NCBI RefSeq assembly: GCF_000378985.1
Contig: NZ_KB905370.1
Span: forward strand, 434,001 to 498,000
DNA: 64,000 nt
From: Ensifer sp. BR816
GTDB taxonomy: Bacteria > Pseudomonadota > Alphaproteobacteria > Rhizobiales > Rhizobiaceae
Direction of reading: 5' to 3'
The notes under the pieces were generated by a model, which was given only the letters and a program-made list of their open reading frames with translations, did not search any database and was not told the DNA's origin. Each line of letters starts with the position of its first letter. Within the stretch, counting starts at the first letter, position 1. This document shows positions 689 through 14,507 of this stretch, piece by piece. The position numbers were made by a program, and so were the translations under genes.

Positions 689-3600
689 ATGACTGTTGAA
701 ATCATAGGGCGTGCATGCCTGGCACCTGGAGCGCAATCACCACAGGCGCTCTTCAAGATTCTGCGTCAAGGCATGTGCACCGTGTCCAGCGTGCCCGGCG
801 ACCGTTGGGACTTGGCGCGTTTCTGGCACCCGGTGATGGGAACGCAGGGCAAGACCTATTCGTTTGCCGCCGGCGTCCTCGACACGATCTATGATTTCGA
901 CCCGGCCGTGTTCGGCATGTCGCAGCGCGAAGCCATGTATATGGACCCGCAGCAGCGCGTGCTCCTTCAACTCGCCTGGCGCGCGCTCGAGGACGCAAAT
1001 ATCTCGATCGCGTCGCTGCACGGCGAGAATGTCGGCGTCTATATCGGCGCATCGAGCCTCGACCACGCCAACCTGACGGTCGAAGATCCGGCCGCCGCCG
1101 GCCCCTATTTCATGACCGGCAACACGCTGTCGATCGTCTCCAACCGCATCTCGCACGTCTTCGGGCTGAGCGGCCCGAGCATGACCGTCGACACCGCCTG
1201 TTCCTCCTCGCTCGTCGCGCTCGACCAGGCGATGCGGGCGCTCAATGCCGGCGAGATCGACACGGCGATCGTCGGCGGCGTCAACATTCTCGCCCATCCG
1301 CTTCCCTTCGTCGGTTTCGCCCAGGCGCGCATGTTGTCGCCGGAGGGCCTCTGCCGCGCCTATGACAATGACGGCGCCGGCTATGTCCGCGCCGAAGGCG
1401 GCGTGGTCTTCGTCCTGCGGCGGTCGGATCGGGCCCGTCGGGAAAAGGACCGGAGCTATGCACGGATCGTCGCCTCCGGCGTCAATTCGGCCGGCCGTAC
1501 CAACGGCATCTCGCTGCCGTCGCGCGAGGCGCAGGCCAATCTGCTGCGAGCGATCTACGAAGGCAACGATATCGACGCCAACCAGGTGGCCTTCGTCGAA
1601 GGCCACGGCACCGGCACCAAGGTCGGTGACCCGGCCGAGGTGTGGTCCATCGGCACGGTCATCGGCGCCAAACGGCGCGCCCCGGTGCCGATCGGCTCCA
1701 TCAAGTCGAATATCGGTCACACCGAGCCGGCCTCCGGCCTGTTCGGCATGATGAAGGCCGTGCTGGCGCTCGAGCACAATTACCTTCCGGCATCGCTGCA
1801 CTTCGACACGCCGAACGAGCATATCGACTTCGACGGCCTCAACGTCCGGGTGACGGCCAATCCGATCGAGCTTCTGAAGGGCAAGCGGGCGCGGCTCGCT
1901 GGCATCAACTCCTTCGGCTTCGGCGGTGCCAATGCCCATGTCGTCATCAGCGATCCGGATCCAATCCAGCCGGAAAAGACCGCGCCGGCATCGACGGGAC
2001 ACGTGTTCCTCGTGAGCGCCCACACGCAGTCGAGCCTCGAAAACCTGCTCAAGGACTATAAGGCGACGTTTGCAAGCGCTTCCAAGGAAGAGACGCGCGC
2101 CATCATCGCCGCTTCGGGCGCAAACCGCACCCAGATGCGCCACCGTTTTGCGGCGCGCAGCGACCACCCCGAGGACATCGTCCGGGCGATCGCCAGCCAC
2201 CTCGACAAGCCGGGCTCCGATATCGGCGAAATCGGCGAGGCGCCGGTCAAGAATGCGCCGGTCGCCTTCGTCTTCTCCGGCAACGGCTCCCAATGGGCCG
2301 GCATGGGTGTCGAGGCCTTCCGCGAAAACCTGCACTTCCGCCAGTCCTTCACCTCGGTCAGCGCGCTCTTCAAGTTCCATTCCGACATCGTCCTCACGGA
2401 CCTGCTGACCGATCCGGCGCTGGACAAGAAGCTCGCCGACACCAAGGTCGCCCAGCCGCTGCTGTTCGCGATCCAGGCGGCGCTCTCCGACTCGCTCGTG
2501 GCGATGGGCATTACGCCGACCGCCGTGTTCGGTCATTCCGTCGGCGAAATCGCCGCAGCCTATGCGGCCGGCGCTCTGTCTCTGGTTGACGCGGTGTCGA
2601 TCGTCGCAAAGCGCTCGCTGCACCAGGACCTCTTGGCTGGCCAAGGCACGATGGCGGCCGTGATGCTCGGCGAGGAAGCGGCGAGCGCGTTTGCCCAGGC
2701 GCGCGGCCTCAACGAAGTCTGCGTCGCAGCCGTCAACGCGCAAAATTCGGTGACGATTTCGGGGCCGGCGAATGAGGTCACCGCCTTCCGTGACGCCGCC
2801 CGCAAGGCGAAGATCCCGGTTCAGATCCTCGACATTAACTACCCGTTCCACCATCCGATCATCGACCAGGCGAAAGAGGCGTTCCTCGCCGATATTCCCG
2901 ATATCGCTCCGCGCCGGACAGAGCTGACCTACCTCTCGACGGTCACCGGCGGCGCTCTCGACGGCACGGAGCTCGATCCCGACTACTGGTGGAAGAACGT
3001 CCGCGAGCCGGTGCGCTTCCAGGCCGCGGCCGAGGCCGCCCTCGCGCTCGGCTGCCGGCTGTTCATCGAAATCTCTCCGCGGCCGATCCTCGCCTCCTAT
3101 GTCAAGGAAACGATCAAGCAGGCGGCGGTCCCGGCAAGTGTGGTGCCGACCTTGCTGCGCGACGCCGGAGAGAATGCGCAGGACCCGATCTCCGCGTCGA
3201 TGGCCCGAGCGGTCGCGCACGGTGCGGTAGTTGACCGACCCCGTGTCTTCGGCAAGCGCGATGCCTTCATCGCGCTGCCGAGCCTGCCCTTCGAGCCGGT
3301 CGAACTGCGCCCGCAGACGACCACCGACGCGACGGACCTCTTCGGTCGTTCCAGCAAGCCCTATCGCCTGACAGGCTGGCGGGGCGATCCCAACAGCGGC
3401 AGCTGGAAAAACCATGTCGACGCGCATCTTTTCCCGGATCTTGCCGAGCATGTCGTCGACGGCAAGGCGATCCTGCCGGGCAGCGGCTTCATCGAAATCG
3501 CCGTTTCCGCCGCGCAGCAATATTACGGCGGCGACGAAGTCGAGATCACCAATCTCGAAATCGTCCGACCGCTCGAACTCAGCGACAGCCGGATCATGGA

Positions 3601-6600
3601 GCTGTCGACCATCCTGTCGCCGGAGACCGGCGACATCGAGATCCGTTCGCGCGAGCGCCTGTCCGAGGACGACTGGACCGTGCACGCGGTGGCGAGAAGC
3701 CGCAAGCCGATGGCCGTTGCGAACGGCAAGCACCCGTCCATATCCGGCCTCGCCAAGACAGGCATAGTCACTCCGGCAAAGGCCTATGACACGGCGAGGC
3801 AATTCGGGCTCGACTACGGCTCGAATTTCCAGTTGCTCGCAAAGGCGGTCGCTTACGGGGACCGGCTGGTCGATGTCGAGCTGAAGGCTCCGGCCGGATC
3901 AGGTCATCCTTTCGTCAGCTATGCGCTCCATCCGATCTCCGTCGACGCGACCTTCCACGGGCTGGTGGCGCTCTTCGACCGCTTCACCGGCGACAAGGGC
4001 GGCGCGCCCTATATTCCCGTCCGCTTCGGGTCGGTTCGCGTCGTCAATGCAGGTCGCCCGATTGCGCGGGCGACGATCGAAATCGAGCGCGTCAGCGCCA
4101 ATTCGATCAAGGCACGGTTCCACTTCTTCGATGCGGCCGGCGAGCCTATCGCGCATTTCGACGATTGTCGTTTCCGCCGGACCTATCTGCGCAAGCACAA
4201 GACGCTCGATGGGCTCTCCTTCCACTATGAGTCGGTCCTCTCCGACGTGATCCTGCCCGGCAGGAAGCTGGCAGGAGCGGTCCCGGCGAAGCTGACCAAC
4301 GCGGCCGGCGCCGAAAGCAGCGTCGACAATGCGACGCTGCTCTTCAATGCTGCCATCTATCGCGCCTGTCACGACATCGCGCTCAAGCTGGCGCGTGGGA
4401 AGAGCGCGATCCAGGGTAATGGCCTGCCTGGCGATTTCGCCTTCCAGTGCTTCTTGACAAACTGCCTCTACACACTCGAGGACGCCGGGCTCTGCGAACA
4501 CCAGAACGGCAGTTGGAAAGTTGCGACGGAGTTCACCCTCCCAACCGTCGCGGAGATCCTCGGAGAGCTCTATGGGGAGCGCCCCGACCGGACCGTCGAA
4601 GCGGTGTTGATCAACAACGCCTATGCGGAAGCACTGAGCCGTCTCGGCGTCCTGCTGGCCGGCGTTGGCGGAGAAGCTGCCGCAGCGTTCAACGCCGGCT
4701 TCATCAGCGAGGCGACGCTCGACCACCAGGCTGTCCATTCGGTGGCAAGCCGTTCGCGCATGGAACAAGTCCTTGCCATGGTCGAAAGCGCTTTGGCCGG
4801 CCAGGTGAATGGCGCTCGCCTGCGTCTCGTCGAGTTCGGCAGCGTTTCCGCCGGCTTCACGCGGCGCCTGGCCGATCTTGCGGCAAGCCATGGAACGACC
4901 CTTTCCGTCGTCGAGCCGCGCGACAATGCCCAGCGCAATCTCGAGATTGCCTTCGAGGAAGACGCCCATGTGCGCATCCTGAAGAAGAGCGAATTCGACG
5001 CGATCGGACCGTTCGACCTGGCCGTCAGTGCCTCGGACAAGCTGTACCAATTGATCGAAGAGGACGCCGCCATCCGCACGGCGCTGCGTTCGAAGCTGCA
5101 GGAAAGCGGCGCGCTGGTCGCTGCCGTCAGTGCTCCATCGATCTTCCATGACTTTGCGCTCGGCCTCTCTGAAGGCTGGTTCGAACGCAGCCAGACGGCG
5201 GAGTTCGCGATCGGCAAGCTCGCCGCGGTGTCGCATTGGCAGAAATGCCTGGCCGATCTCGAGCTCAACGACGTCAGCGTAAGCGACTGCGAGTGCCCGC
5301 ATGGCAATACGATCCTGATCGAGGCGCGTGGTGCAGCGGTCGCGGCCCCGGCCGCAAGCGACGCCGGCGCCGTTGTTCCCTATCTGATGATCGAAACGAC
5401 AGCGCGGCGCGGCTCTGCCCCCAAGGGCGCCATCCCGGTCGCAGTCACCGGCGATATGGCCGCCGATGTTGCCGTGCTCGGGGCAGCGCTCGATGGCCTT
5501 GGCGAGAAGCCGGTCCGTGCGGTTTTCGTCTCCCCCGGGGCAGACCGCATCGACGACACCGATTCCGCCCTGCTACAGACGCAGGTCTTGGCACTCAGCG
5601 CCTTTTCCGAAGCGCTCAAGCAGCGTGTCGCGAACGCCGAGCTCGCCGGGAATGAGCGCCCCCGTCTCGTGCTGGTAGCGCCGGGCGGCGCTCCGGTGTC
5701 GGAATCGGCGCGCTCGGGCGTCAATTCGGGATTGTGGACCTTCGTCCGCGTGCTGCAGAACGAGTACGAATTCCTCGACGTTCATTCACTCGATCTCTTC
5801 GGACACGCGAGCGCCAGCCACGACGAGATGCTCGCCGCGGCGCTGCCGCTGCTGGCCATCGAGGGCTCCAACCGCGAATGGCTGCTGGATCGGGCGACCG
5901 GTCTGCTTTCGGAAATCCGGGCGGTGTCTGGTCCCGCCGCCAAAACAGAGGGCAGGACCAGCACCTTCGCGGCCGCCACCATTCGCCAGCGCGTCAGCTC
6001 CCAGGTCAGCAGCATCGCCTGGGAAGAAACCGTTGTGCCGCGGGCCGGACCCGGCGAGATCGTCGTCTCGGTCGCCGCCACGGGTCTCAACTTCCGCGAC
6101 GTCATGTGGGCGATGGGCCTGCTGCCGGAAGAGGCGCTCGAAGACGGCTTTGCCGGCGCGACGATCGGCATGGAGCTGTCCGGCCATGTGGTCGAAGTCG
6201 GCGCAGGCGTTGACGATCTCGCCATCGGCGATGCGGTGATGGCGATCGCCTCGGCCGCCTTCTCGACGCATGCGGTCGTCTCCCGGGCCGGCGTCGCCAA
6301 GCTGCCACGGACGATCAGCCCGGTGGCTGCCGCCACGCTGCCGGTGGCGTTCCTCACCGCCTATTACGCAATGGTCGAGCTCGGCCGCATCCGGGCGGGT
6401 GAAACGATCCTCATTCACGGCGCTGCCGGCGGGGTCGGCCTCGCCGCGTTGCAGGTCGCCAAGCTGAAGGGCGCCAAGGTCATCGCCACGGCCGGAACCC
6501 GTGAAAAGCGACGTTTCCTCACGATGCTCGGGGCCGATCACGTCTTCGATTCCCGATCGCTCGGTTTCGTCAACGATGTCCGCGCCGTGACTGGCGGCGA

Positions 6601-8194
6601 AGGGGTCGATCTCGTTCTCAACTCGCTCTTCGCCGAGGCGATGGAGCAAAGCCTGGCGCTCGTCAAACCCTTCGGGCGGTTCCTCGAACTCGGCAAGCGC
6701 GACTATTACGCCGACAGCAAGATCGGCCTCAGGCCGTTCCGACGCAATGTCAGCTATTTCGGCATCGACGCCGACCAGCTCCTCGTCAATCAGCCGGACC
6801 TGACCAAGCGAATCTTCATGGAAATCGGCGCGCTCTTCGAAGAGGGCCGGCTGACACCGCTTCCCTATCGCGCCTTCGATTTCGATGAAATCGGCAATGC
6901 GTTCCGGCTGATGCAGAATGCCGGCCATATCGGCAAGATCGTCGTGCTCCCGCCGGTCGCCGGCAAGCACGAGATTGCCGCCAAGACGCGCAGCGGCATG
7001 AAGGTCGATCCGGACGGGATGCATCTCGTTGTCGGCGGTATCGGGGGCTTCGGGCTGGTAGCGGCCAAGTGGCTCGTCGACAAGGGCGCGCGCCACATTG
7101 CTCTCTGTTCACGCCGCGGCTTGCCGGATGCCGAGACGAGTGCAGCCATCGAGCGCTGGCAGAAGGCTGGCGTCTCGGCATCTGTCCATGCCTGCGACGT
7201 CACCGATGCCGCGGCCGCCGAAGCGTTGCTTGCAACGCTTCGCGCCCAGGCGCCGCTGCGTTCGGTCGTCCATGCGGCAATGGTGCTCGATGATGCGTTG
7301 ATCAGCAACTTGAACCGCGAGCGCAACCGGCCGGTCATCGACGTCAAGGCGAAGGGCGCGGCGATCCTCGACCGCCTGACGCGCGCAGACGCGCTCGACA
7401 ACTTCATCCTGTTTTCCTCCGCAACGACACTCGTCGGCAATCCGGGCCAGGCAAACTATGTGGCCGCCAACGGCTACCTCGAGGGCCTTGCCCGCGCACG
7501 GCGCGCCGGGGGGCTGGCAGGCTTGGCGGTCGGCTTCGGCGCCATCGCCGATGCGGGCTACCTGACGCAGAATGCCGACGTGAACGACCTGCTCTCCAAG
7601 CGCATCGGCAAGACGGCGCTCAGGGCCCAGGTGGCGCTCGACATGGTGGAGAACCATATCGCGGCCGACCCGGGCAGCGTCGATGCGGCGGTCGTGATAA
7701 TCTCGGAGATCGACTGGGCGGCGGCGCGCAACTTGCCGGTCGCCAAGAAAGCCCTGTTCGAAGTGATCCTGCGCAGCGCCGACCAGCACACCTCCGGCGC
7801 CGAGGGCGCCAAGATGGACCTCGTGGCGATGATCGAGGGCAAGTCGCCGCAGGAGGCGGAGGACATCCTGTTCGATCTGGTGGCGGGCGAGATCGCCGCC
7901 ATTCTCCGCGTCGCCAAGGATACGGTGACGCGCGGCAAGATCCTGAAGGAAATCGGCCTCGACAGCCTGATGGCCGTCGAGCTCGGCATCAGCTTCCAGC
8001 AGAATACAGGGTTCGACATGCCGCTCAGCGGCGTCGCCGACAACACGACCGTCGGGGATGTTGCGCGCAAGCTCTATGAAAAGGTAAGCAAGCGCGATCA
8101 GAGCGACGATAGTGAAGCCGCCGACGACAAGCTCGTCACCGAACTGACGCAACGCCATATCGGAGCTGCCAAGGAAAAAGCACTGGGCCAATGA
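689..8194 (+). CDS. rkpA: Iterative highly reducing type I polyketide/fatty acid synthase RkpA
   Basis: A 2501-residue multidomain synthase expected to build a fully reduced special acyl chain needed for the K-antigen capsule. Domains in order: ketosynthase about 1-430 (active Cys171 in DTACSSS, His306 in EGHGTGT, His344 in NIGHTEP); acyltransferase about 525-830 (Ser617 in GHSVGE; the YPFHH motif with Phe suggests malonyl use); dehydratase about 900-1190 (His921 in HVVDGKAILP, Asp1086); a degenerate methyltransferase-like region about 1270-1500; enoylreductase about 1750-2085 (HGAAGGVG near 1909); ketoreductase about 2105-2310 (GGIGGFG near 2114, Tyr2257); ACP about 2390-2465 (Ser2426 in GLDSL). 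No thioesterase follows. The ATG at 689 has only a weak ribosome site but matches the KS start. It overlaps rkpG by 4 bases. Early reports described this locus as several rkp ORFs; here it is one uninterrupted frame. Confidence 0.95.
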   Translation: MTVEIIGRACLAPGAQSPQALFKILRQGMCTVSSVPGDRWDLARFWHPVMGTQGKTYSFAAGVLDTIYDFDPAVFGMSQREAMYMDPQQRVLLQLAWRALEDANISIASLHGENVGVYIGASSLDHANLTVEDPAAAGPYFMTGNTLSIVSNRISHVFGLSGPSMTVDTACSSSLVALDQAMRALNAGEIDTAIVGGVNILAHPLPFVGFAQARMLSPEGLCRAYDNDGAGYVRAEGGVVFVLRRSDRARREKDRSYARIVASGVNSAGRTNGISLPSREAQANLLRAIYEGNDIDANQVAFVEGHGTGTKVGDPAEVWSIGTVIGAKRRAPVPIGSIKSNIGHTEPASGLFGMMKAVLALEHNYLPASLHFDTPNEHIDFDGLNVRVTANPIELLKGKRARLAGINSFGFGGANAHVVISDPDPIQPEKTAPASTGHVFLVSAHTQSSLENLLKDYKATFASASKEETRAIIAASGANRTQMRHRFAARSDHPEDIVRAIASHLDKPGSDIGEIGEAPVKNAPVAFVFSGNGSQWAGMGVEAFRENLHFRQSFTSVSALFKFHSDIVLTDLLTDPALDKKLADTKVAQPLLFAIQAALSDSLVAMGITPTAVFGHSVGEIAAAYAAGALSLVDAVSIVAKRSLHQDLLAGQGTMAAVMLGEEAASAFAQARGLNEVCVAAVNAQNSVTISGPANEVTAFRDAARKAKIPVQILDINYPFHHPIIDQAKEAFLADIPDIAPRRTELTYLSTVTGGALDGTELDPDYWWKNVREPVRFQAAAEAALALGCRLFIEISPRPILASYVKETIKQAAVPASVVPTLLRDAGENAQDPISASMARAVAHGAVVDRPRVFGKRDAFIALPSLPFEPVELRPQTTTDATDLFGRSSKPYRLTGWRGDPNSGSWKNHVDAHLFPDLAEHVVDGKAILPGSGFIEIAVSAAQQYYGGDEVEITNLEIVRPLELSDSRIMELSTILSPETGDIEIRSRERLSEDDWTVHAVARSRKPMAVANGKHPSISGLAKTGIVTPAKAYDTARQFGLDYGSNFQLLAKAVAYGDRLVDVELKAPAGSGHPFVSYALHPISVDATFHGLVALFDRFTGDKGGAPYIPVRFGSVRVVNAGRPIARATIEIERVSANSIKARFHFFDAAGEPIAHFDDCRFRRTYLRKHKTLDGLSFHYESVLSDVILPGRKLAGAVPAKLTNAAGAESSVDNATLLFNAAIYRACHDIALKLARGKSAIQGNGLPGDFAFQCFLTNCLYTLEDAGLCEHQNGSWKVATEFTLPTVAEILGELYGERPDRTVEAVLINNAYAEALSRLGVLLAGVGGEAAAAFNAGFISEATLDHQAVHSVASRSRMEQVLAMVESALAGQVNGARLRLVEFGSVSAGFTRRLADLAASHGTTLSVVEPRDNAQRNLEIAFEEDAHVRILKKSEFDAIGPFDLAVSASDKLYQLIEEDAAIRTALRSKLQESGALVAAVSAPSIFHDFALGLSEGWFERSQTAEFAIGKLAAVSHWQKCLADLELNDVSVSDCECPHGNTILIEARGAAVAAPAASDAGAVVPYLMIETTARRGSAPKGAIPVAVTGDMAADVAVLGAALDGLGEKPVRAVFVSPGADRIDDTDSALLQTQVLALSAFSEALKQRVANAELAGNERPRLVLVAPGGAPVSESARSGVNSGLWTFVRVLQNEYEFLDVHSLDLFGHASASHDEMLAAALPLLAIEGSNREWLLDRATGLLSEIRAVSGPAAKTEGRTSTFAAATIRQRVSSQVSSIAWEETVVPRAGPGEIVVSVAATGLNFRDVMWAMGLLPEEALEDGFAGATIGMELSGHVVEVGAGVDDLAIGDAVMAIASAAFSTHAVVSRAGVAKLPRTISPVAAATLPVAFLTAYYAMVELGRIRAGETILIHGAAGGVGLAALQVAKLKGAKVIATAGTREKRRFLTMLGADHVFDSRSLGFVNDVRAVTGGEGVDLVLNSLFAEAMEQSLALVKPFGRFLELGKRDYYADSKIGLRPFRRNVSYFGIDADQLLVNQPDLTKRIFMEIGALFEEGRLTPLPYRAFDFDEIGNAFRLMQNAGHIGKIVVLPPVAGKHEIAAKTRSGMKVDPDGMHLVVGGIGGFGLVAAKWLVDKGARHIALCSRRGLPDAETSAAIERWQKAGVSASVHACDVTDAAAAEALLATLRAQAPLRSVVHAAMVLDDALISNLNRERNRPVIDVKAKGAAILDRLTRADALDNFILFSSATTLVGNPGQANYVAANGYLEGLARARRAGGLAGLAVGFGAIADAGYLTQNADVNDLLSKRIGKTALRAQVALDMVENHIAADPGSVDAAVVIISEIDWAAARNLPVAKKALFEVILRSADQHTSGAEGAKMDLVAMIEGKSPQEAEDILFDLVAGEIAAILRVAKDTVTRGKILKEIGLDSLMAVELGISFQQNTGFDMPLSGVADNTTVGDVARKLYEKVSKRDQSDDSEAADDKLVTELTQRHIGAAKEKALGQ

Positions 8195-9606
8195 GCAACG
8201 ACGGAAACGGCCAGACCTTCTCCAAGATGAACAGCAGCCTCAAGGAGAACCTGCTGGACAGGATGAGGAACACGCATCAATCCTCCGAGCGCAACCGCAT
8301 GGCACGCTCGGAACGGGAACTGCCGCCTGCCCCGCGTCGTCAACAGGCTCGCTTCGAGGATCTGCCGGAATACAAGCAGGTTCAGGCGCAGAAATTCGCG
8401 AGCGAGCAGCTTGGCATCGCCAATCCTTTCTATCGGGCGCATCAGACGGCAGCCGGTGCGACCACGGTGATCGATGGCCGCACGCTCATCAACTTCGCCT
8501 CCTATGACTATCTTGGGCTGAACAGGCACTCCCACGTCCTCGACAAAGCACGCGAGACGATCGAAACCTTCGGGATTTCCGCCTCGGCGAGCCGGCTCGT
8601 GGCAGGCGAACGCCCCGTGCATGTCGAGCTCGAGGAGCGGATCGCGCGGTTCTACGGCGTCGAGGCGGCCGTCTGCTTCGTCAGCGGCTACCTCACCAAT
8701 GTCGCGGCCATCGGCTGCCTGTTGGGGCCAAAGGATCTCGTCATCCATGATGAGTTCATCCACAACAGCGCGCTTGCCGGCATCAAGCTTTCGGGCGCCA
8801 CGCGCCGCCTTTTCAAGCACAACGACACGACCGATCTGGAACATGTGCTGCGTACCGTTTCCGGCGACTATCGGCATATCATGGTCATCGTCGAGGGCAT
8901 CTATTCGATGGATGGCGATGTCGCCGAATTGCCGGCGCTGCTGAAACTCAAGGCGGAATTCGGCTTCTGGCTGATGGTGGACGAAGCCCATTCGCTGGGC
9001 GTCCTGGGCCGGCGGGGCAAGGGCCTTGCCGAGCATTTCGGCGTCGATCCGAACGAGGTCGACATCTGGATGGGGACCCTGTCGAAGACCACCTCGAGCT
9101 GCGGCGGCTACATCGCCGGCAGCGAGGCTCTCGCCGCGGTGCTTAAGGCGTCGGCCGGCGGCTTCGTCTACAGCGTCGGCCTCGCCCCCGTTCTCGGAGC
9201 ATCGGCGGTGGCGAGCCTCGACATCCTCGAACGGGAGCCGGAGCGCACCGCCGCACTCAGGCGCAATGGCCACCTGTTCCTGAAACTCGCCAAGGAAGCT
9301 GGCCTCGATACGGGCTTGAGTGGCGGCTACTCTGTCGTGCCGGTGATCGTCGGCGATTCGCTTAGGGCCGTGCAGCTGTCGAACGACCTCCTCGCCGGCG
9401 GCATCAACGTGCTGCCGATCATCCATCCGGCGGTTCAGGAGGGGATGGCGCGGCTGCGCTTCTTCATCACCAGCGAGCATACGGAGGAGCAGATCCGCCG
9501 CACCGTGGCGCTGACCGCCGAGCGCCTGAAGGATCTCACTGAACGGAATTTCGGGCTCGGCGGCGTCGATATCGACCAGATGCTGAAGGCTCTCTCGGCG
9601 CGCTAG
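8191..9606 (+). CDS. rkpG: Alpha-oxoamine synthase RkpG (AONS/serine palmitoyltransferase-like)
   Basis: A 471-residue PLP enzyme of the alpha-oxoamine synthase family, which condenses an acyl thioester with an amino acid with loss of CO2. A polar N-terminal extension of about 80 residues precedes the catalytic core. Visible core motifs are SYDYLGL, the substrate His region HDEFIHNSAL, the PLP-binding VDEAHSLG (Asp264, His267) and the Schiff-base Lys299 in LSKTTSS, so it looks active. The start ATG overlaps the rkpA stop (ATGA), which implies translational coupling and fits direct use of the chain carried on the RkpA ACP. Bacterial biotin enzymes of the family (BioF) are about 390 residues and sit with bio genes; none are here. 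The amino-acid partner cannot be told from sequence. Confidence 0.93.
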   Translation: MSNDGNGQTFSKMNSSLKENLLDRMRNTHQSSERNRMARSERELPPAPRRQQARFEDLPEYKQVQAQKFASEQLGIANPFYRAHQTAAGATTVIDGRTLINFASYDYLGLNRHSHVLDKARETIETFGISASASRLVAGERPVHVELEERIARFYGVEAAVCFVSGYLTNVAAIGCLLGPKDLVIHDEFIHNSALAGIKLSGATRRLFKHNDTTDLEHVLRTVSGDYRHIMVIVEGIYSMDGDVAELPALLKLKAEFGFWLMVDEAHSLGVLGRRGKGLAEHFGVDPNEVDIWMGTLSKTTSSCGGYIAGSEALAAVLKASAGGFVYSVGLAPVLGASAVASLDILEREPERTAALRRNGHLFLKLAKEAGLDTGLSGGYSVVPVIVGDSLRAVQLSNDLLAGGINVLPIIHPAVQEGMARLRFFITSEHTEEQIRRTVALTAERLKDLTERNFGLGGVDIDQMLKALSAR

Positions 9607-9652
9607 ACATTGGGCGCCGCTCCAGGCCAGCGGCGGCAGGCAGGTTCACCGC

Positions 9653-10456
9653 ATGACCCACGTGATCATAACCGGCGGCTCCAGCGGCATAGGCCTGGCA
9701 CTCGCATCCCTCTATGTCGGCCGCGGCGCCCGGCTGTCTCTCGTTGCGCGCTCGCGTGATCTCCTGGAAGCGGCGGCGCAGACGCTCGTTGTGAAATACG
9801 GTGCCGGAGCCGGCGATATCCATATCGAGACGGCCGATGTCGCGAGCGAGGAGGACATCGGCTCGGCGATCGGGCGCTGCGTCGTGGCGCTGGGCCCCTG
9901 CGACATTCTCGTGACCTCGGCTGGGGTCGTCGAACCGGCGTCGTTCCTCGATGCTTCGAGCGCCGCCTTCCGACGGCAGATGGACACGAATTTTTCCGGC
10001 ACCGTCAACGCGGTGCGCGCCGTCTACCCGGCCATGGTGCGGCGGCGCAGCGGCCATATCGTGATGATTTCCTCGGGTTCCGGGCTTATCGGCATCTACG
10101 GCTACACGGCCTATTGCGCGTCGAAGTTCGCGCTCCGCGGCTTTGCCGAGGCGCTGCGTAGCGAAGCGCGCTGTCACGACGTCGGCGTATCGGTGAGCTT
10201 TCCGCCGGATACGGAAACGCCGCAATTGGAGCGGGAGATCGCCGAGCGCCCGCCGGAGGCAAGCGTGGTGATGGGGGTCGTCCGTCCCTGGACCGCCGAA
10301 GCGGTCGCCAGGAAGATCATCGACGGCGTGGAAAGGAAACGGTTTGAGATCTATTTCGGCCTCACGCTTTTCCTGCTCGGACGCTTCGGCCCGGCCGTCC
10401 GGCCGCTCGTCAACTGGTGGTTCGACCGGGCAATCGCGCGCAGTCGTGGACGGTAA
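9653..10456 (+). CDS. rkpH: Short-chain dehydrogenase RkpH (3-ketosphinganine reductase-like)
   Basis: A 267-residue classical SDR. The NAD(P)-binding motif TGGSSGIG is at residues 7-14 and the catalytic pair Tyr154/Lys158 lies in YCASK, preceded by the ISSGSG serine region, so the active site is complete. The sequence resembles 3-ketodihydrosphingosine reductases, including the TETP-type segment after the active site and a hydrophobic, basic C-terminal tail (about 225-265) that may associate with membrane. It lies 46 bases after rkpG with a GGCAGG ribosome site. Its natural role would be to reduce the 3-keto group left by RkpG. Other SDR substrates are possible. Confidence 0.9.
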   Translation: MTHVIITGGSSGIGLALASLYVGRGARLSLVARSRDLLEAAAQTLVVKYGAGAGDIHIETADVASEEDIGSAIGRCVVALGPCDILVTSAGVVEPASFLDASSAAFRRQMDTNFSGTVNAVRAVYPAMVRRRSGHIVMISSGSGLIGIYGYTAYCASKFALRGFAEALRSEARCHDVGVSVSFPPDTETPQLEREIAERPPEASVVMGVVRPWTAEAVARKIIDGVERKRFEIYFGLTLFLLGRFGPAVRPLVNWWFDRAIARSRGR

Positions 10457-10567
10457 ACTTGAGGTTCGCAGCGGCGCTTGTGCCCGCCGTCGTTAGCCTT
10501 TAAGTGTCGGCCGAAAGCCCTGCTGCCGAGGCGGCGCCGGCGCGGAAAATGGCTCGAAGGTATCGGA

Positions 10568-12163
10568 TTGGCGCGACTTCCCTTTGAATTGCACGACTAT
10601 CCGGTGGCATTGACGCTCGGCTGCTATCTGCTGTCCTGCGGGGTGATCTTCTTCACCGATCGGTTCGCCTTGCCGGCACGCGAGCGCAGGAAGAACGCTC
10701 CCCCCTACGGACGCAATCAGGACGTCATCGACGCTCTCGCCCGGCTGCCCGTGATTGCACTCGTCTTCGCCGGATTCTTCGCGATTTCCTGGCGGCCGCT
10801 CTACGCAGCTGCCGGTGTCATGAGCTTCTTCATCATCTTCACCGGCATCTCCCGCGCAAAGTTCAAGTTCATCCGCGAGCCGCTGGTTTTCTCGGACATC
10901 GCCCTCGTCGCCGACGTCTTCAAGTACAAGAGCATTTTCTATGCGACCTCGCTGAACATCCTGTTCTGGATCGTCGCCTTCCTCTACGTCTTCGGGGTTT
11001 CCGGGCTCTATATGTATTTCGAGCCGAGCGTCCTGCCGGCACGCGACAAGCTGTTCTGGGTTTTGGTGATGATCGCGGTCGCCGCCGGACCCTGGCTCCT
11101 GCTGTTCTACGGACCGGTCAACCGCCCGACGGCGGCTCTCGTGCAGCGGCTCGTGGGCAAGAAGGTCAACGTCAAAATGAGCACGGTGCGCTTCGGCACC
11201 TTCGGCTCGGTCGTCTTCCACTTCATCATCTGGCTGGGGGTCAAGCGCGAGAAGATCGTTGCCGAACTCTCCGAACGCCTGCGCGCCGCGGTCCAGGAGC
11301 TCATCGGCCATGAGGAGGCGCCGCTCATCGTCGTCTGGCAATCGGAATCCTTCATCGACATGCGCCACTTCGGCGTGGACACGATCAAGCTGCCGGCGAT
11401 CGACAGGCTGCGTCAGCAGGCGGCGCAGTGGGGGCGGTTGAGCAACGTTTTCGAAGGCGGCTATACGCTACGCACCGAATTCGCGGTCCTGAGCGGCCTT
11501 GTGCCGGACGACATCCACGTCGATGCGAGCTATCCCTATCTTCGCGCCGCCCACTATGCCGATGTCGTCTGGCCGGGAAAGTTGAAGCGCGCCGGCTGGC
11601 GCACCCATTTCATTCATCCCTATGACCGGACGTTCTTCCTGCGGCACAAGGCAATGCCGGTACTCGGTTTCGAAACGCTGACCATGCTCGACGCCTTCGA
11701 TCATGATCCCTCTCAAGACGGTCTCTACGTCTCGGATGCCGCCCTGACCGCGAGAGTTCTGGAGGAGGCGCAAAAGCTTCCCGAGGACGAAAGCGGTTTC
11801 TTCTTCGTCGCTTCGATGGCCAATCACGGCCCTTGGGAGCCCGGTCGCGTCGGAACGCTCACCAATCCGGTCGATATCTACCTGGCGATCCTTCAGCAAT
11901 CGGATATCGCTCTGAGGAAGCTTGTCGATGGTCTCAACAGGCTGGATCGCCCGGTATGGCTCGTCTTCTACGGCGATCACGCACCGCTTCTCAAATCCTT
12001 TGCCGATCCCTTCCCCGATCCGCGCACGGACTATTTCATCGTCCCGCTGGCCAAGGCTCGCCCAGCAAATCACCGTCCCCGAACGTCGCAGGACGAGGAC
12101 CCGTGGAACCTCCTGCGCGCGCTGCTCAAGCACGCCAATGTGCAAAAGGACACGCTGCAATAG
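10568..12163 (+). CDS. rkpI: Membrane sulfatase-fold transferase RkpI (LtaS/OpgB-like)
   Basis: A protein of about 531 residues with four or five N-terminal membrane segments (roughly residues 10-190) and a C-terminal alkaline-phosphatase/sulfatase-fold domain. In the domain the metal ligand Glu260 (QSESF), the presumed nucleophile Thr300 (GGYTLRTEF), the MANHGPW His and Asp470/His471 (YGDHAPLL) correspond to the catalytic set of lipoteichoic acid synthases, which move phosphoglycerol from phosphatidylglycerol. The exact donor and acceptor here are unknown. I chose the TTG at 10568 because GAAGG lies 7 bases upstream and the protein then starts near the first membrane segment; a TTG at 10478 would add 30 very basic residues. 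It belongs to the rkpAGHIJ operon. Confidence 0.85.
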   Translation: MARLPFELHDYPVALTLGCYLLSCGVIFFTDRFALPARERRKNAPPYGRNQDVIDALARLPVIALVFAGFFAISWRPLYAAAGVMSFFIIFTGISRAKFKFIREPLVFSDIALVADVFKYKSIFYATSLNILFWIVAFLYVFGVSGLYMYFEPSVLPARDKLFWVLVMIAVAAGPWLLLFYGPVNRPTAALVQRLVGKKVNVKMSTVRFGTFGSVVFHFIIWLGVKREKIVAELSERLRAAVQELIGHEEAPLIVVWQSESFIDMRHFGVDTIKLPAIDRLRQQAAQWGRLSNVFEGGYTLRTEFAVLSGLVPDDIHVDASYPYLRAAHYADVVWPGKLKRAGWRTHFIHPYDRTFFLRHKAMPVLGFETLTMLDAFDHDPSQDGLYVSDAALTARVLEEAQKLPEDESGFFFVASMANHGPWEPGRVGTLTNPVDIYLAILQQSDIALRKLVDGLNRLDRPVWLVFYGDHAPLLKSFADPFPDPRTDYFIVPLAKARPANHRPRTSQDEDPWNLLRALLKHANVQKDTLQ

Positions 12164-12189
12164 CAGTGGCCCTGGGAAAACACGCAGCG

Positions 12190-13521
12190 ATGACGGCAGG
12201 CATCACCACCAAGCAGCAGCCCCGGCGAACATTCCTGTTCCTGCAAGGCCCTTCGTCGCCGATCTTCGCCAAGATCGCCGCGCGGCTCGAGGCATTCGGC
12301 CATACCTGCCTGCGGATCAACCTCAATGCCGGCGACCAGATTTTCTGGCGGCGCGGCGGCGCGCACAATTATCGCGGCTCGATCGCCGATTGGGCCGCCT
12401 ATGTCGAGGCATTCATCGGCCGCCATGCCGTCAGCGATCTCGTCCTCCTCGGCGAGGAACGCCCTTACCACCAGATGGCTATCGCCGCCGCGCGTCGGCG
12501 CGGGGTGGAGGTCTTCGTCGTCGAGATGGGCTATCTCAGGCCCGACTGGCTGACGCTCGAGCGCGGCGGCATGTCGTCCAACTCGCATTTTCCCGCCGAC
12601 CCGGAGCAGATCCTGCGGGCAGCGGCCGGACTGCCGGAACCGGACTGGCGGCGGCGGTATACGCAGACCTTCTTTGCCGAGGCTGCCTTCGACCTCCTCT
12701 ACAATCTGCCGAACGTCTTCTTCTCGTTTCTTTTCCCGGCTTATCGCCGGCACGCGATCTTTCATCCGCTGGCGGAATATGCCGGCTGGATGAGGCGGCT
12801 GGCTGCAGCCGAGCGCCGGCGAAGCACTGCAGACCGGCTGATCGGCTCGCTTATGTCCGCAAGCACACCCTATTTCGTCTACCCGCTGCAGCTCGAGACC
12901 GATTTCCAATTGCGGGCACACTCTCCCTTCAACAGCCAGAAAGAGGCAATTGCGGACATTCTGGCCTCATTCAGACGCCATGCGCCAGTCGCCAGCAAGC
13001 TCGCCATCAAGGTGCATCCGCTCGACAACGGCCTGATCCCGTGGCGCAGGATCATCGCCGGCCAGGCGGCGGCACTCGGGATCAGCGACCGCGTCGTCTA
13101 TCTCGACGGCGGAAACCTGGATCTGCTGACGGAGAAAAGCGCCGGCATGGTAACGGTGAACTCGACCGCCGGCTTACACGCCTTGAAACAGGGCAGACCG
13201 GTAAAAGTTCTCGGCAGGGCCGTTTTCGATATCGCGGGCCTGACGGACCAGCAGCCGCTTAATGGCTTCTGGACGGCGCCACGGTCGCCGGATCCGGAGC
13301 TGGGCAAAGCGATGCTGCGATTGATGGCGGCGTCGATCCAGGTTCGCGGCAATTTCTATTCAACCGCCGGGACCGACGCCGGCGCCGAGGCCATCGCCGA
13401 GCGGCTGCACCGCAACACCGTCAACGAACCGGGTGCCTTCGTCGATCCTCCGCCGCGGCAAAAGCCGCAAAAGAGAGCAATACCTTCCGATCAGGCAACG
13501 CCGGCACGCAGGAGGTCGTGA
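12190..13521 (+). CDS. rkpJ: KpsS-type capsule Kdo transferase RkpJ
   Basis: A 443-residue cytoplasmic protein matching the KpsS/LipB capsule family along its length: LQGPSSPIF near the start, NLNAGDQIFWR, GEERPYHQ, the signature EMGYLRPDWLTLERGG and the C-terminal VNSTAGLHAL followed by a DIAGL segment. KpsS puts the first beta-Kdo on the lipid acceptor of group 2 capsules, so this enzyme probably starts the Kdo linker on the capsule anchor. The ATG at 12190 lies 26 bases after rkpI; a GTG at 12166 is an alternative. The 3' end overlaps the convergent kpsF gene by 31 bases. Confidence 0.88.
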   Translation: MTAGITTKQQPRRTFLFLQGPSSPIFAKIAARLEAFGHTCLRINLNAGDQIFWRRGGAHNYRGSIADWAAYVEAFIGRHAVSDLVLLGEERPYHQMAIAAARRRGVEVFVVEMGYLRPDWLTLERGGMSSNSHFPADPEQILRAAAGLPEPDWRRRYTQTFFAEAAFDLLYNLPNVFFSFLFPAYRRHAIFHPLAEYAGWMRRLAAAERRRSTADRLIGSLMSASTPYFVYPLQLETDFQLRAHSPFNSQKEAIADILASFRRHAPVASKLAIKVHPLDNGLIPWRRIIAGQAAALGISDRVVYLDGGNLDLLTEKSAGMVTVNSTAGLHALKQGRPVKVLGRAVFDIAGLTDQQPLNGFWTAPRSPDPELGKAMLRLMAASIQVRGNFYSTAGTDAGAEAIAERLHRNTVNEPGAFVDPPPRQKPQKRAIPSDQATPARRRS

Positions 13522-14507
13522 ATATGCAGGATGCCTTCCGGCTTTCCCGTCTCGCCGACGAGGAAAAGTACGGTGACCTTTTGCTCCTGCATGAATTCCA
13601 TGGCCGCGCTCGCCAGCACGTCCGCCTGCACCACCTTCGGATGATGTGACATGACCTCCTCGACCGGCTGGCCGAGCAGGTCGCCGGTCATGTGCCGGCG
13701 CAGGTCGCCATCGGTGATCACGCCGACAAGCACGCCGCCCTCGTCGACAATGCCGACAACGCCGAAGCCTTTTGCCGACATCTCAATGACGGCTTCGCTC
13801 ATCGGCCGGCCGACCGCGAGCAACGGCATCTGGTCCGCCACATGCGCCAGCTCGTGGACCAGCCGTAGCTGCGCACCCAGCTTGCCGCCGGGGTGGAAGG
13901 TCTTGAAGTCCTCGGCCGAAAAGCCGCGCCGTTCCAGGAGTGCGATCGCCAGCGCGTCGCCGACGGCGAGCTGCAGCATGGCCGAGGTCGTCGGCGCCAA
14001 GCCGTGCGGACAGGCCTCCGGGACCTTTGGAAGCACCAGGGCGATCTCGGAATTGCGCGCCAGGATGCTGTCGCGGTTCGACGAGATCGACACGATCGGC
14101 ACCTTGAAGCGCTTGGCATAGGTGAGCATGTTGGCGAGTTCGGCCGTCTCGCCCGACCAGGACAACAGGATGAGCACGTCATCGGAGGTGACCATGCCAA
14201 GATCGCCGTGGCTCGCCTCGGTCGGGTGGACGAAATAGGCCGAGGTGCCGGTGGAGGCGAGCGTCGCGGCGATCTTGCGACCGATATGCCCGCTCTTGCC
14301 GACGCCGGAGACGACGACGCGGCCATGCCCGTCACCGACCAGTTCGACCGCTTCGACGAGGCTGCGCGCAAAGCTTTCGTCCGTCGCCAGGTGGTCCGCG
14401 AGAGCCTTGATGCCGTCCTCCGCCGTCGTCAGCGTCCGGCCGATCGAATCCAGAATGGCGCTCGGAGAATGTCCATCCGCCTTCACATGCCGCAAGCCCA
14501 TCATCAA
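13491..14507 (-). CDS. kpsF: Arabinose-5-phosphate isomerase KpsF
   Basis: A 338-residue protein with an N-terminal SIS domain (about 40-175, with SGVGKSGHIG and the HPTEASHGDLG segment) followed by two CBS domains (about 210-270 and 280-335), the standard KpsF/KdsD/GutQ layout. It converts ribulose-5-phosphate to arabinose-5-phosphate, the precursor of Kdo. Next to a KpsS-type Kdo transferase it probably raises the Kdo supply for the K-antigen; a separate housekeeping copy is usual in this group. Three adjacent Met codons (14507, 14504, 14501) could start it. It runs convergent to rkpJ with a 31-base overlap of coding ends. S. fredii literature calls this neighbour kpsF3. Confidence 0.92.
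   Translation of the reverse strand: MMMGLRHVKADGHSPSAILDSIGRTLTTAEDGIKALADHLATDESFARSLVEAVELVGDGHGRVVVSGVGKSGHIGRKIAATLASTGTSAYFVHPTEASHGDLGMVTSDDVLILLSWSGETAELANMLTYAKRFKVPIVSISSNRDSILARNSEIALVLPKVPEACPHGLAPTTSAMLQLAVGDALAIALLERRGFSAEDFKTFHPGGKLGAQLRLVHELAHVADQMPLLAVGRPMSEAVIEMSAKGFGVVGIVDEGGVLVGVITDGDLRRHMTGDLLGQPVEEVMSHHPKVVQADVLASAAMEFMQEQKVTVLFLVGETGKPEGILHIHDLLRAGVA

Follow-up and report, generated by a model that had tools for sequence, protein, structure and literature searches.

The closest described counterpart of the genes considered here is SgaAB of Pseudomonas fluorescens MYb115, a polyketide synthase (PKS) paired with an alpha-oxoamine synthase (AOS) that makes C24, C26, and C28 sphinganines (PMC12134224). 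According to the available part of that report, published in June 2025, SgaB forms a serine aldimine and condenses L-serine with acyl-coenzyme A substrates while barely using alanine or glycine, labeled serine is incorporated in vivo, and the short-chain dehydrogenase/reductase (SDR) SgaC is proposed as a 3-ketodihydrosphingosine reductase (KDSR); 6,101 homologous clusters are reported, mostly from Burkholderia. Lipid extracts of MYb115 are described there as holding free sphinganines and phosphoglycerol-sphingolipids, the latter interpreted from +154-Da compounds, and the masses that we computed for phosphoglycerol-sphinganines agree with these compounds. The same part names no phosphoglycerol transferase, and the strings “capsul,” “rhizob,” “rkpA,” and “wcb” do not occur in the text. 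Since the 1990s, the rkp-1 genes of rhizobia have been linked to the production of K-antigen and to the nodulation of several hosts, and the available part of a review states that their products both make and modify “a specific lipid carrier”; their role in the capsule lipid has gone unexplained for about thirty years. Among the titles and abstract openings listed from the open-licence literature, none joined rkp or capsule to sphingoid bases. Here, we analyze a 64,000-nucleotide stretch of Ensifer sp. BR816 (the window; GCF_000378985.1, contig NZ_KB905370.1, positions 434,001 to 498,000 of the forward strand; 6.95-Mb genome), which opens with five genes of rkp-1 type. We refer to these provisionally as rkpA, rkpG, rkpH, rkpI, and rkpJ, names given from gene order and family alone.

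We propose that rkpI and rkpJ complete a line that ends in a phosphoglycerol-sphinganine primed with 3-deoxy-D-manno-oct-2-ulosonic acid (Kdo). This completion is what is new here: because SgaAB is published, the sphinganine chemistry itself is not, and its extension to rkp is an argument from homology. In the proposed pathway, RkpA, judging from its observed domains, would assemble a very long saturated acyl chain on its acyl carrier protein (ACP). The residues of RkpG and the biochemistry of its homologue indicate that this enzyme would then release the chain by decarboxylative condensation with L-serine, yielding a long-chain base with a 3-keto group, and RkpH would reduce that base to a sphinganine, likely of C24 to C28 if homologue products are a guide. 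RkpI, placed by its family, would transfer glycerol-phosphate from phosphatidylglycerol, the presumed donor, to the primary hydroxyl of the sphinganine; the product, phosphoglycerol-sphinganine, would be a sphingoid copy of lyso-phosphatidylglycerol. Finally, RkpJ would attach the initial Kdo to the glycerol, after which Kps-type machinery would synthesize and export the polymer. We regard it as very probable that the pathway yields sphinganine. The RkpI family, an SgaAB-type pair within a Pseudomonas capsule cluster, and the KpsS-like RkpJ lead us to read rkpA-G-H-I-J as one linear pathway to the lipid end of the capsule, a reading that we favor by a reasonable measure; that phosphoglycerol-sphinganine is the covalent capsule anchor is favored slightly.

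The first-pass annotation of the window had described a PKS, an oxoamine synthase, and an SDR in that order, and this arrangement was confirmed by three head-to-tail plus-strand open reading frames (ORFs) and their Pfam assignments. rkpA (689 to 8194) encodes an iterative, fully reducing type I PKS of 2501 amino acids (aa), matching the families ketoacyl-synt, Acyl_transf_1, PS-DH, ADH_zinc_N, KR, and PP-binding. Its ketosynthase (KS; 695 to 1807, aa 3 to 373, PF00109/PF02801) carries TACSSS at residue 169, HGTGT at 306, and NIGHTE at 341, and its acyltransferase (AT; 2267 to 3184, aa 527 to 832) carries GHSVGE at 615 and YPFH; by motif rule, we take this AT to be of the malonyl type. The dehydratase (DH; 3398 to 4180, aa 904 to 1164, PF21089/PF14765) holds HVVDGKAILP at 921, the enoylreductase (ER; 6047 to 6946, aa 1787 to 2086, PF08240/PF13602) its motif at 1910, the ketoreductase (KR; 7016 to 7549, aa 2110 to 2287, PF08659) Y..N at 2257, and the ACP (7880 to 8068, aa 2398 to 2460, PF00550) GLDSL at 2423. 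The ACP domain corresponds to the former RkpF, which the available part of PMC9386255 describes as an ACP. The interval between DH and ER is a degenerate methyltransferase (MT)/KR structural region. Hence, the KS-AT-DH-(degenerate MT)-ER-KR-ACP order noted previously was upheld by both domains and active-site motifs. One pattern for the S-adenosylmethionine glycine motif, tried on RkpA, had no match, and the active C-methyltransferase of a fumonisin-type PKS was accordingly not found by this pattern; the Pfam scan detected no thioesterase family C-terminal to the ACP.

rkpG (8191 to 9606, plus strand) overlaps the rkpA stop by 4 bases and encodes a 471-aa member of Aminotran_1_2, predicted to be a serine-using serine palmitoyltransferase (SPT) acting on the RkpA acyl chain. 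The pyridoxal phosphate (PLP) lysine recognized in the first-pass annotation, Lys299, is invariant in 14 of 14 aligned sequences, RkpG included, and across the RkpG clade (99/99 rows). H191, D264, H267, T296, and R423 are likewise kept in all 99 rows, completing the residue set of an AOS; we take the six, starting from Lys299, to be the PLP Lys, the stacking His, Asp, His, Thr, and the carboxylate Arg. The Ser134-Arg135 pair of the clade recurs in all 16 rows retrieved by SPT models (16/16), in plant LCB2a, and in five unassigned AOS rows (L025 to L027, L068, and L080). These positions are Val-Arg in KBL, Ser-His/Gly in BioF, and Thr-Arg in ALAS-like rows, which were labeled from their Thr without a curated scan. 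Tyr105 is present in 99/99 clade rows and LCB2a, and the position is occupied by Asn in BioF, KBL, and ALAS-like rows; the 16 SPT rows, of which 9 exceed the curated cutoff and two (L170 and L174) are one gene, divide into 11 Asn and 5 Tyr.

The tree agreed with the residue columns. It contained 68 rows (25 of the 99 RkpG-clade rows and 9 of the 16 SPT rows) and was built by a quick method with SH-aLRT support only. The RkpG clade, L021, and AOSs adjoining ceramide-synthase-like or inositol-phosphate-synthase genes formed a 31-row group (SH-aLRT 99), which joined LCB2a and L024 (84) and then the SPTs (91), separate from the rows of BioF, KBL, and ALAS-like type. The LCB2a branch is long and uncertainly placed. 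The phylogeny thus puts RkpG on the SPT side, and a role in biotin synthesis was ruled out by the residue columns together with tree position. Among solved chains in the PDB, the RkpG-family profile matched SPT best (328.8 bits, 4.2e-97), followed by Thermus BioF/Kbl (322.2 bits). The nearest relatives among the matches listed are from Ensifer/Sinorhizobium (88 to 93% identical). RkpG is highly likely to act as an SPT, with serine rather than alanine as the predicted amino acid. The PLP and carboxylate residues, the SPT grouping, and the chemistry of the SgaAB homologue strongly support the earlier proposal that the trio makes a long-chain amino alcohol and not a simple fatty acid. The label “fumonisin-type” fared less well: the order of enzymes holds, but alanine gives way to predicted serine, and no working methyltransferase motif was found in RkpA.

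A reducing PKS followed directly by an AOS, as in SgaAB, is thus present in the window, and this linkage recurs widely. In a scan of 398 genomes of the phylum, proteins of RkpG type (at least 46% identity to RkpG) gave 19 matches in 18 genomes, and all 18 fetched regions other than the window's own (L031 to L048) had a PKS adjoining or fused to the AOS. Eighty named loci, which are the best-scoring rows of a larger scan and therefore lean toward close relatives, span Rhizobiaceae to Nitrosomonas, Pseudomonas, and Desulfomicrobium. In 76 of these, the RkpG homologue is closely preceded by the end of a PKS gene (an LpxC-like gene intervenes in L143), and KS, AT, ER, and KR were all detected in 69. 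No upstream PKS was seen in the other four, where little upstream sequence was available (about 1.3 kb or less in L142, L160, and L163; 2.0 kb in L128); the AOS of Rhodopirellula L160 lies on a short contig that shows no PKS. The PKS-AOS arrangement is not due to chance. In L047, the two are fused in a single 2611-aa KS-AT-DH-ER-KR-ACP-AOS chain. No canonical SPT was matched in the window's genome at the cutoffs used.

rkpH (9653 to 10456, plus strand) encodes a classical SDR of 267 aa (adh_short), a predicted 3-keto-sphinganine-type reductase. Its Tyr154 and Lys158, counted with RkpH itself, are invariant in 5/5 and 13/13 aligned sequences, as expected of a catalytic SDR. With a five-row profile (two RkpH sequences and the SDRs of L047, L053, and L054), the solved KDSR TSC10 ranked first of 697 chains (4.5e-44). 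At E<=1e-50, scoring the top 6 candidates per genome, this profile matched 6 of 398 genomes; five are its own sources, and the sixth is an RkpG genome whose SDR lies 20 kb from the PKS-AOS pair. Trios of rkpA-G-H type occupy 20 of the 80 named loci, all from Rhizobiaceae genera or “Rhizobiales bacterium,” and a weaker SDR match replaces the RkpH type in 15; Rhizobium albus L138 gave no SDR match at the locus. Other PKS-AOS loci carry an SDR of a different, FabG-like subfamily, which in L119, L137, L155, and L162 sits between the rkpJ and rkpI homologues. These comparisons give good support to a reductase acting here, and RkpH may or may not share its descent with KDSR.

rkpI (10478 to 12163) and rkpJ continue downstream of rkpH in the same direction. 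RkpI consists of five hydrophobic segments followed by a PF00884 domain and is a predicted phosphoglycerol transferase of the GacH/LtaS family. Alone, it matched a single solved chain, the phosphoglycerol transferase GacH (2.5e-7). A 16-row profile, from which the L099 stretch was left out as an RkpJ homologue, matched 8 distinct PDB sequences, of which seven are phosphoglycerol or lipoteichoic-acid transferases (GacH at 4e-38, LtaP, and LtaS among them) and the eighth is uncharacterized. Phosphoethanolamine transferase and true sulfatase were ruled out as identities, neither being among the 8 matches at E<=0.01. E290, T330, H450, D500, and H501, which we take to be the metal and nucleophile residues, are present in 16/16 aligned sequences. 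With scoring of the top 3 candidates in each genome, RkpI-type proteins at E<=1e-100 occurred in 12 of 18 RkpG genomes, three of which (G000, G050, and G395) contributed rows to the profile, and in 2 of 380 others (P = 6e-17); at E<=1e-40, the counts were 13/18 and 20/380, the weaker matches including relatives in many Rhizobiaceae. An RkpI type lies directly upstream of the PKS in L041, L042, L044, and L157. Since phosphoglycerol transfer is the activity that phosphoglycerol-sphingolipids need, RkpI fits such lipids, and it probably phosphoglycerylates sphinganine. Strong RkpI-type proteins also occur in two genomes that yielded no RkpG of at least 46% identity (G303:C1:1505544-1507079 and G327:C1:1234370-1235860); these may serve another acceptor or an unseen pathway.

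rkpJ (11833 to 13521, plus strand) lies within a 562-aa ORF whose real start is probably near the end of rkpI. The ORF holds one Capsule_synth domain (PF05159, aa 202 to 509, 2.3e-110); a single such domain in a capsule operon is the KpsS type, and RkpJ is a predicted KpsS-like beta-Kdo transferase. In Escherichia coli, KpsS adds the first Kdo to (lyso-)phosphatidylglycerol, according to the available part of PMC7694667. Convergent with rkpJ on the minus strand, a gene for a SIS and CBS protein of the KpsF/KdsD type (13491 to 14507; PF01380 and PF00571) appears to be of the arabinose-5-phosphate isomerase type, which fits Kdo supply for a capsule linker. More Capsule_synth genes are present elsewhere in this genome, and a KpsS-, KpsC-, or KpsE-type gene lies within the fetched flank of 44 of the 80 named loci.

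One of these loci is L162 of Pseudomonas putida 31753, where an SgaAB-type PKS and AOS lie inside a Kps-type capsule cluster. The start of its PKS matches the published sgaA forward primer at 22 of 22 positions (next best locus, 6 mismatches), and the sgaA end is matched there at all but 4 of 23 positions; no close match to the sgaB end primer was found in L162. The AOS is 53% identical to RkpG over 396 residues. The opposite strand carries an RkpI-type gene, an SDR gene, a KpsS-type gene, a KpsC-type gene in two parts, a cytidylyltransferase whose family is that of the CMP-Kdo-synthetase type, Poly_export, Wzz (slightly below the Pfam cutoff), an ABC ATPase, and an ABC-2 permease. Interspersed with these are two further Capsule_synth genes, along with genes for a small acetyltransferase, a PhyH protein, two APH-like proteins, and proteins that have no assigned family.

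A further line of evidence concerns the amine. Directly 3′ of the AOS in L032, L039, and L105 lies a gene for a GNAT-type acyltransferase of about 380 aa in the ceramide-synthase (CerS) family. Two of the four genes aligned, those of L040 and L033 (18 and 22%), were judged unrelated and dropped. The family profile matched YghO of E. coli across 370 columns (E 1.9e-79, 36%). YghO lies in the BL21 spt cluster and, in the available part of PMC9386255, is listed alongside Caulobacter CC_1154, an N-acyltransferase required for dihydroceramide. A member of the family was seen no more than 10 kb away from 6 of 8 canonical SPT genes, in one case cut off at the stretch end, and the family occurs in 20 of 249 genomes, three of which (G095, G187, and G191) supplied profile rows. 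These 20 include 16/16 SPT genomes; the remaining four are G187 and G191, where the gene adjoins an AOS; G041, where it shares the PKS-AOS contig; and G101, in which no AOS was found at the cutoff used. Because a CerS-family N-acyltransferase adjoins the AOS, the PKS-AOS product would be expected to carry an amine. Two side observations arose in this family. On one contig of G041 (C102, 2460-4954; also L048), a CerS-type acyltransferase, an RkpI type, a PKS, and an AOS occur together, a candidate ceramide-phosphoglycerol cluster. E. coli K-12 yghO (L189, 11044-12216), labeled a putative transcriptional regulator, is a full-length CerS-family gene that adjoins an IS5 insertion at the site where BL21 has the spt cluster.

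Several observations weigh against the proposed line or parts of it. The lead of SPT over Thermus BioF/Kbl in the RkpG profile search is just 6.6 bits. RkpG scores below the NCBIfam SPT cutoffs (NF047599, NF047600, and NF047603: 269, 300, and 201 bits versus 500, 640, and 670), and its top NCBIfam score is to BioF (354 versus a cutoff of 426), with no equivalog cutoff reached; by itself, NCBIfam misleads on RkpG identity. For RkpH, a rhizobial profile (13 of 22 available sequences) ranked TSC10 16th of 696, as RkpH alone did (16th of 573), and the NCBIfam KDSR score is 95 against a cutoff of 400. The call of RkpH as KDSR from the five-row profile was therefore withdrawn: of the ketosphinganine-reductase-like SDR annotated at first pass, the intact Tyr/Lys pair stands and the KDSR assignment of RkpH on its own does not. 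In 13 of 18 RkpG genomes, no RkpH-type SDR appeared among the top 6 candidates at 1e-50, and that of G262 sits in a different operon. No RkpI-type protein was found among the top 3 candidates in 6 of 18 RkpG genomes at E<=1e-100 (5 of 18 at E<=1e-40); G265, which has rkpA-G-H, is among those without it. For 36 of 80 loci, genes of KpsS, KpsC, or KpsE type did not appear in the fetched stretch (21 stretches under 20 kb, 15 of full length). Topology adds a difficulty: the RkpI catalytic domain presumably faces the periplasm, by family, whereas KpsS/KpsC act on the cytoplasmic side, so the RkpI and RkpJ steps would call for either a flip or another order. Sphingoid bases in free form readily pass through membranes, which the phosphoglycerol form would not do. 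Lastly, Fraysse and colleagues, in a 2005 paper with “phospholipid anchor” in its title, reportedly described an anchor of Sinorhizobium meliloti 1021 composed of phosphoglycerol and hydroxy-octacosanoic acid, without nitrogen.

If the capsule anchor is nitrogen-free, RkpA-G-H, perhaps with RkpI, could make phosphoglycerol-sphinganine as a free outer membrane lipid or export helper, while the covalent anchor is an ordinary phosphoglycerol lipid (lyso-phosphatidylglycerol or the 27-hydroxy-C28 acid form); the free sphingolipids described for MYb115 (available part of PMC12134224) are in keeping with this. We consider it unlikely, though the leading alternative, since the window genes share an operon with rkpJ and the Pseudomonas L162 pair lies inside a capsule cluster. 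Moreover, C28 phosphoglycerol-sphinganine (C31H66NO7P, 595.4577) and the anchor reported in 2005 (C31H63O8P, 594.4261) differ by only 1.0316 Da as computed. The capsule polymer has a size of 4 to 4.5 kDa, and within it a difference this small makes misassignment of the 2005 formula possible, which we offer as conjecture. Taken whole, the strongest form of our proposal is an even bet: that rkp-1 is a self-contained phosphoglycerol-sphinganine line priming the Kdo linker of an entire class of ABC-exported capsules, that the SgaAB lipids, published as “secondary-metabolite” sphingolipids, are anchor precursors, that RkpI is the missing transferase, and that the 2005 formula is a 1.03-Da misassignment.

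The remaining alternatives concern the lipid itself. The older view, that RkpA makes a special fatty acid which RkpG just transfers, using no amino acid, draws on the review's description of rkp-1 products as making and modifying a specific lipid carrier and on generic database names for RkpG-like proteins (aminotransferase, 8-amino-7-oxononanoate synthase). It is very improbable given PLP and amino-acid carboxylate residues in 99/99 rows, the SgaB biochemistry in the available part of PMC12134224, and the ceramide-synthase-family gene directly 3′ of the AOS in three loci. We give equally little weight to use of alanine or glycine, which would yield a 1-deoxy base, not open to phosphoglycerylation by RkpI at C1: the enzyme order does match fungal PKS-AOS-KDSR clusters, but Ser134-Arg135 is SPT-like, not the Val of KBL or the Thr of ALAS-like rows, and no MT glycine motif was matched. 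Least probable of all is N-acylation of the base before use. Such a ceramide would suit L032, L039, and L105, with a CerS-family gene 3′ of the AOS, and G041, where one accompanies an RkpI type, PKS, and AOS; however, all 46 candidates scored in the window's genome (46/46) gave no CerS-family match at E<=1e-10.

Should the phosphoglycerol-sphinganine line be correct, each of the five rkp genes would gain a step, the purpose of the PKS would be explained, and the sphingolipid pathway of 2025 would be tied to capsule assembly, with RkpI as a candidate enzyme for the SgaAB-type phosphoglycerol forms. Bacteria counted as sphingolipid free for want of a canonical SPT, rhizobia included, would then carry sphingolipid-anchored capsules. 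Legumes and animals sense sphingoid bases, and one might speculate that a sphingoid anchor is also a symbiosis signal.

Other loci met during the survey extend the range of AOS contexts. The L047 fusion (G169:C320; 2920-3729, 9832-17667, and 17664-18791) lies near a KDSR-like SDR and an inositol-1-phosphate synthase, possibly a locus for a PKS-made inositol sphingolipid. Related AOSs without a PKS link in L053 and L054 stand alongside the same two kinds of gene; the operon (L053 8997-17112, L054 2766-12323) also holds LptF/LptG-type permeases, to which L053 adds a cytidylyltransferase and a GT4, and is a candidate inositol phosphosphingolipid operon lacking a PKS. An LpxC-family deacetylase paralogue lies between PKS and AOS in L043 (7942-8883) and L143 (8953-9858). 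In L050 (371-8014), a more distant AOS ends a 1937-aa KS-DH-ACP-AOS fusion with an N terminus that looks AMP-ligase-like by eye. Ahead of this fusion lies a second AOS-like protein, itself placed behind a segment that, also by eye, resembles a cyclic-nucleotide-binding domain. Within the 64-kb window, there was no tRNA, and no Rfam family reached its gathering score.

Compared with known systems, the rkp line is most like SgaAB(C), sharing an iterative reducing type I PKS, an AOS with SPT activity (predicted for RkpG), and an SDR, with very long sphinganines and their phosphoglycerol forms as the expected rkp products. Against the SgaAB-type locus L162, RkpG is 53% and RkpA 35% identical; RkpH differs, being just 28% identical to the L162 SDR and of another subfamily. 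By name and domain order, RkpA belongs with the WcbR/RkpA capsule-cluster PKSs, whose genes cluster with capsule export genes; the available parts of PMC3908369 and PMC4245539 describe no sphingoid product and do not contain “oxoamine.” The SPT-CerS-CerR systems of Caulobacter and E. coli B likewise use a PLP-dependent condensation of acyl-ACP with serine and a specialized ACP, as far as the available parts of PMC9386255, PMC11324152, and PMC11087976 describe them; there, however, an acyl-ACP synthetase loads the chain, whereas the rkp chain would be PKS made, and the window's genome has no CerS or SPT match at the cutoffs used. Fungal PKS-AOS-KDSR clusters (fumonisin and sphingofungin), likened here by description and not by sequence, follow the same order of chemical steps, and FUM13 is named a KDSR homologue in the available part of PMC12134224; rkp would differ in using serine, in lacking methylation, and in serving a surface anchor instead of a toxin. 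With the E. coli group 2 anchor, in which KpsS and KpsC build poly-Kdo on (lyso-)phosphatidylglycerol (available part of PMC7694667), rkp would share a Kdo linker on a phosphoglycerol headgroup, RkpJ being KpsS-like, but a single sphingoid chain is predicted to replace the acyl-glycerol. RkpI, finally, resembles GacH, LtaS, and LtaP in seven of the eight PDB matches of its profile and in its key residues, differing in its predicted acceptor, a long-chain base.

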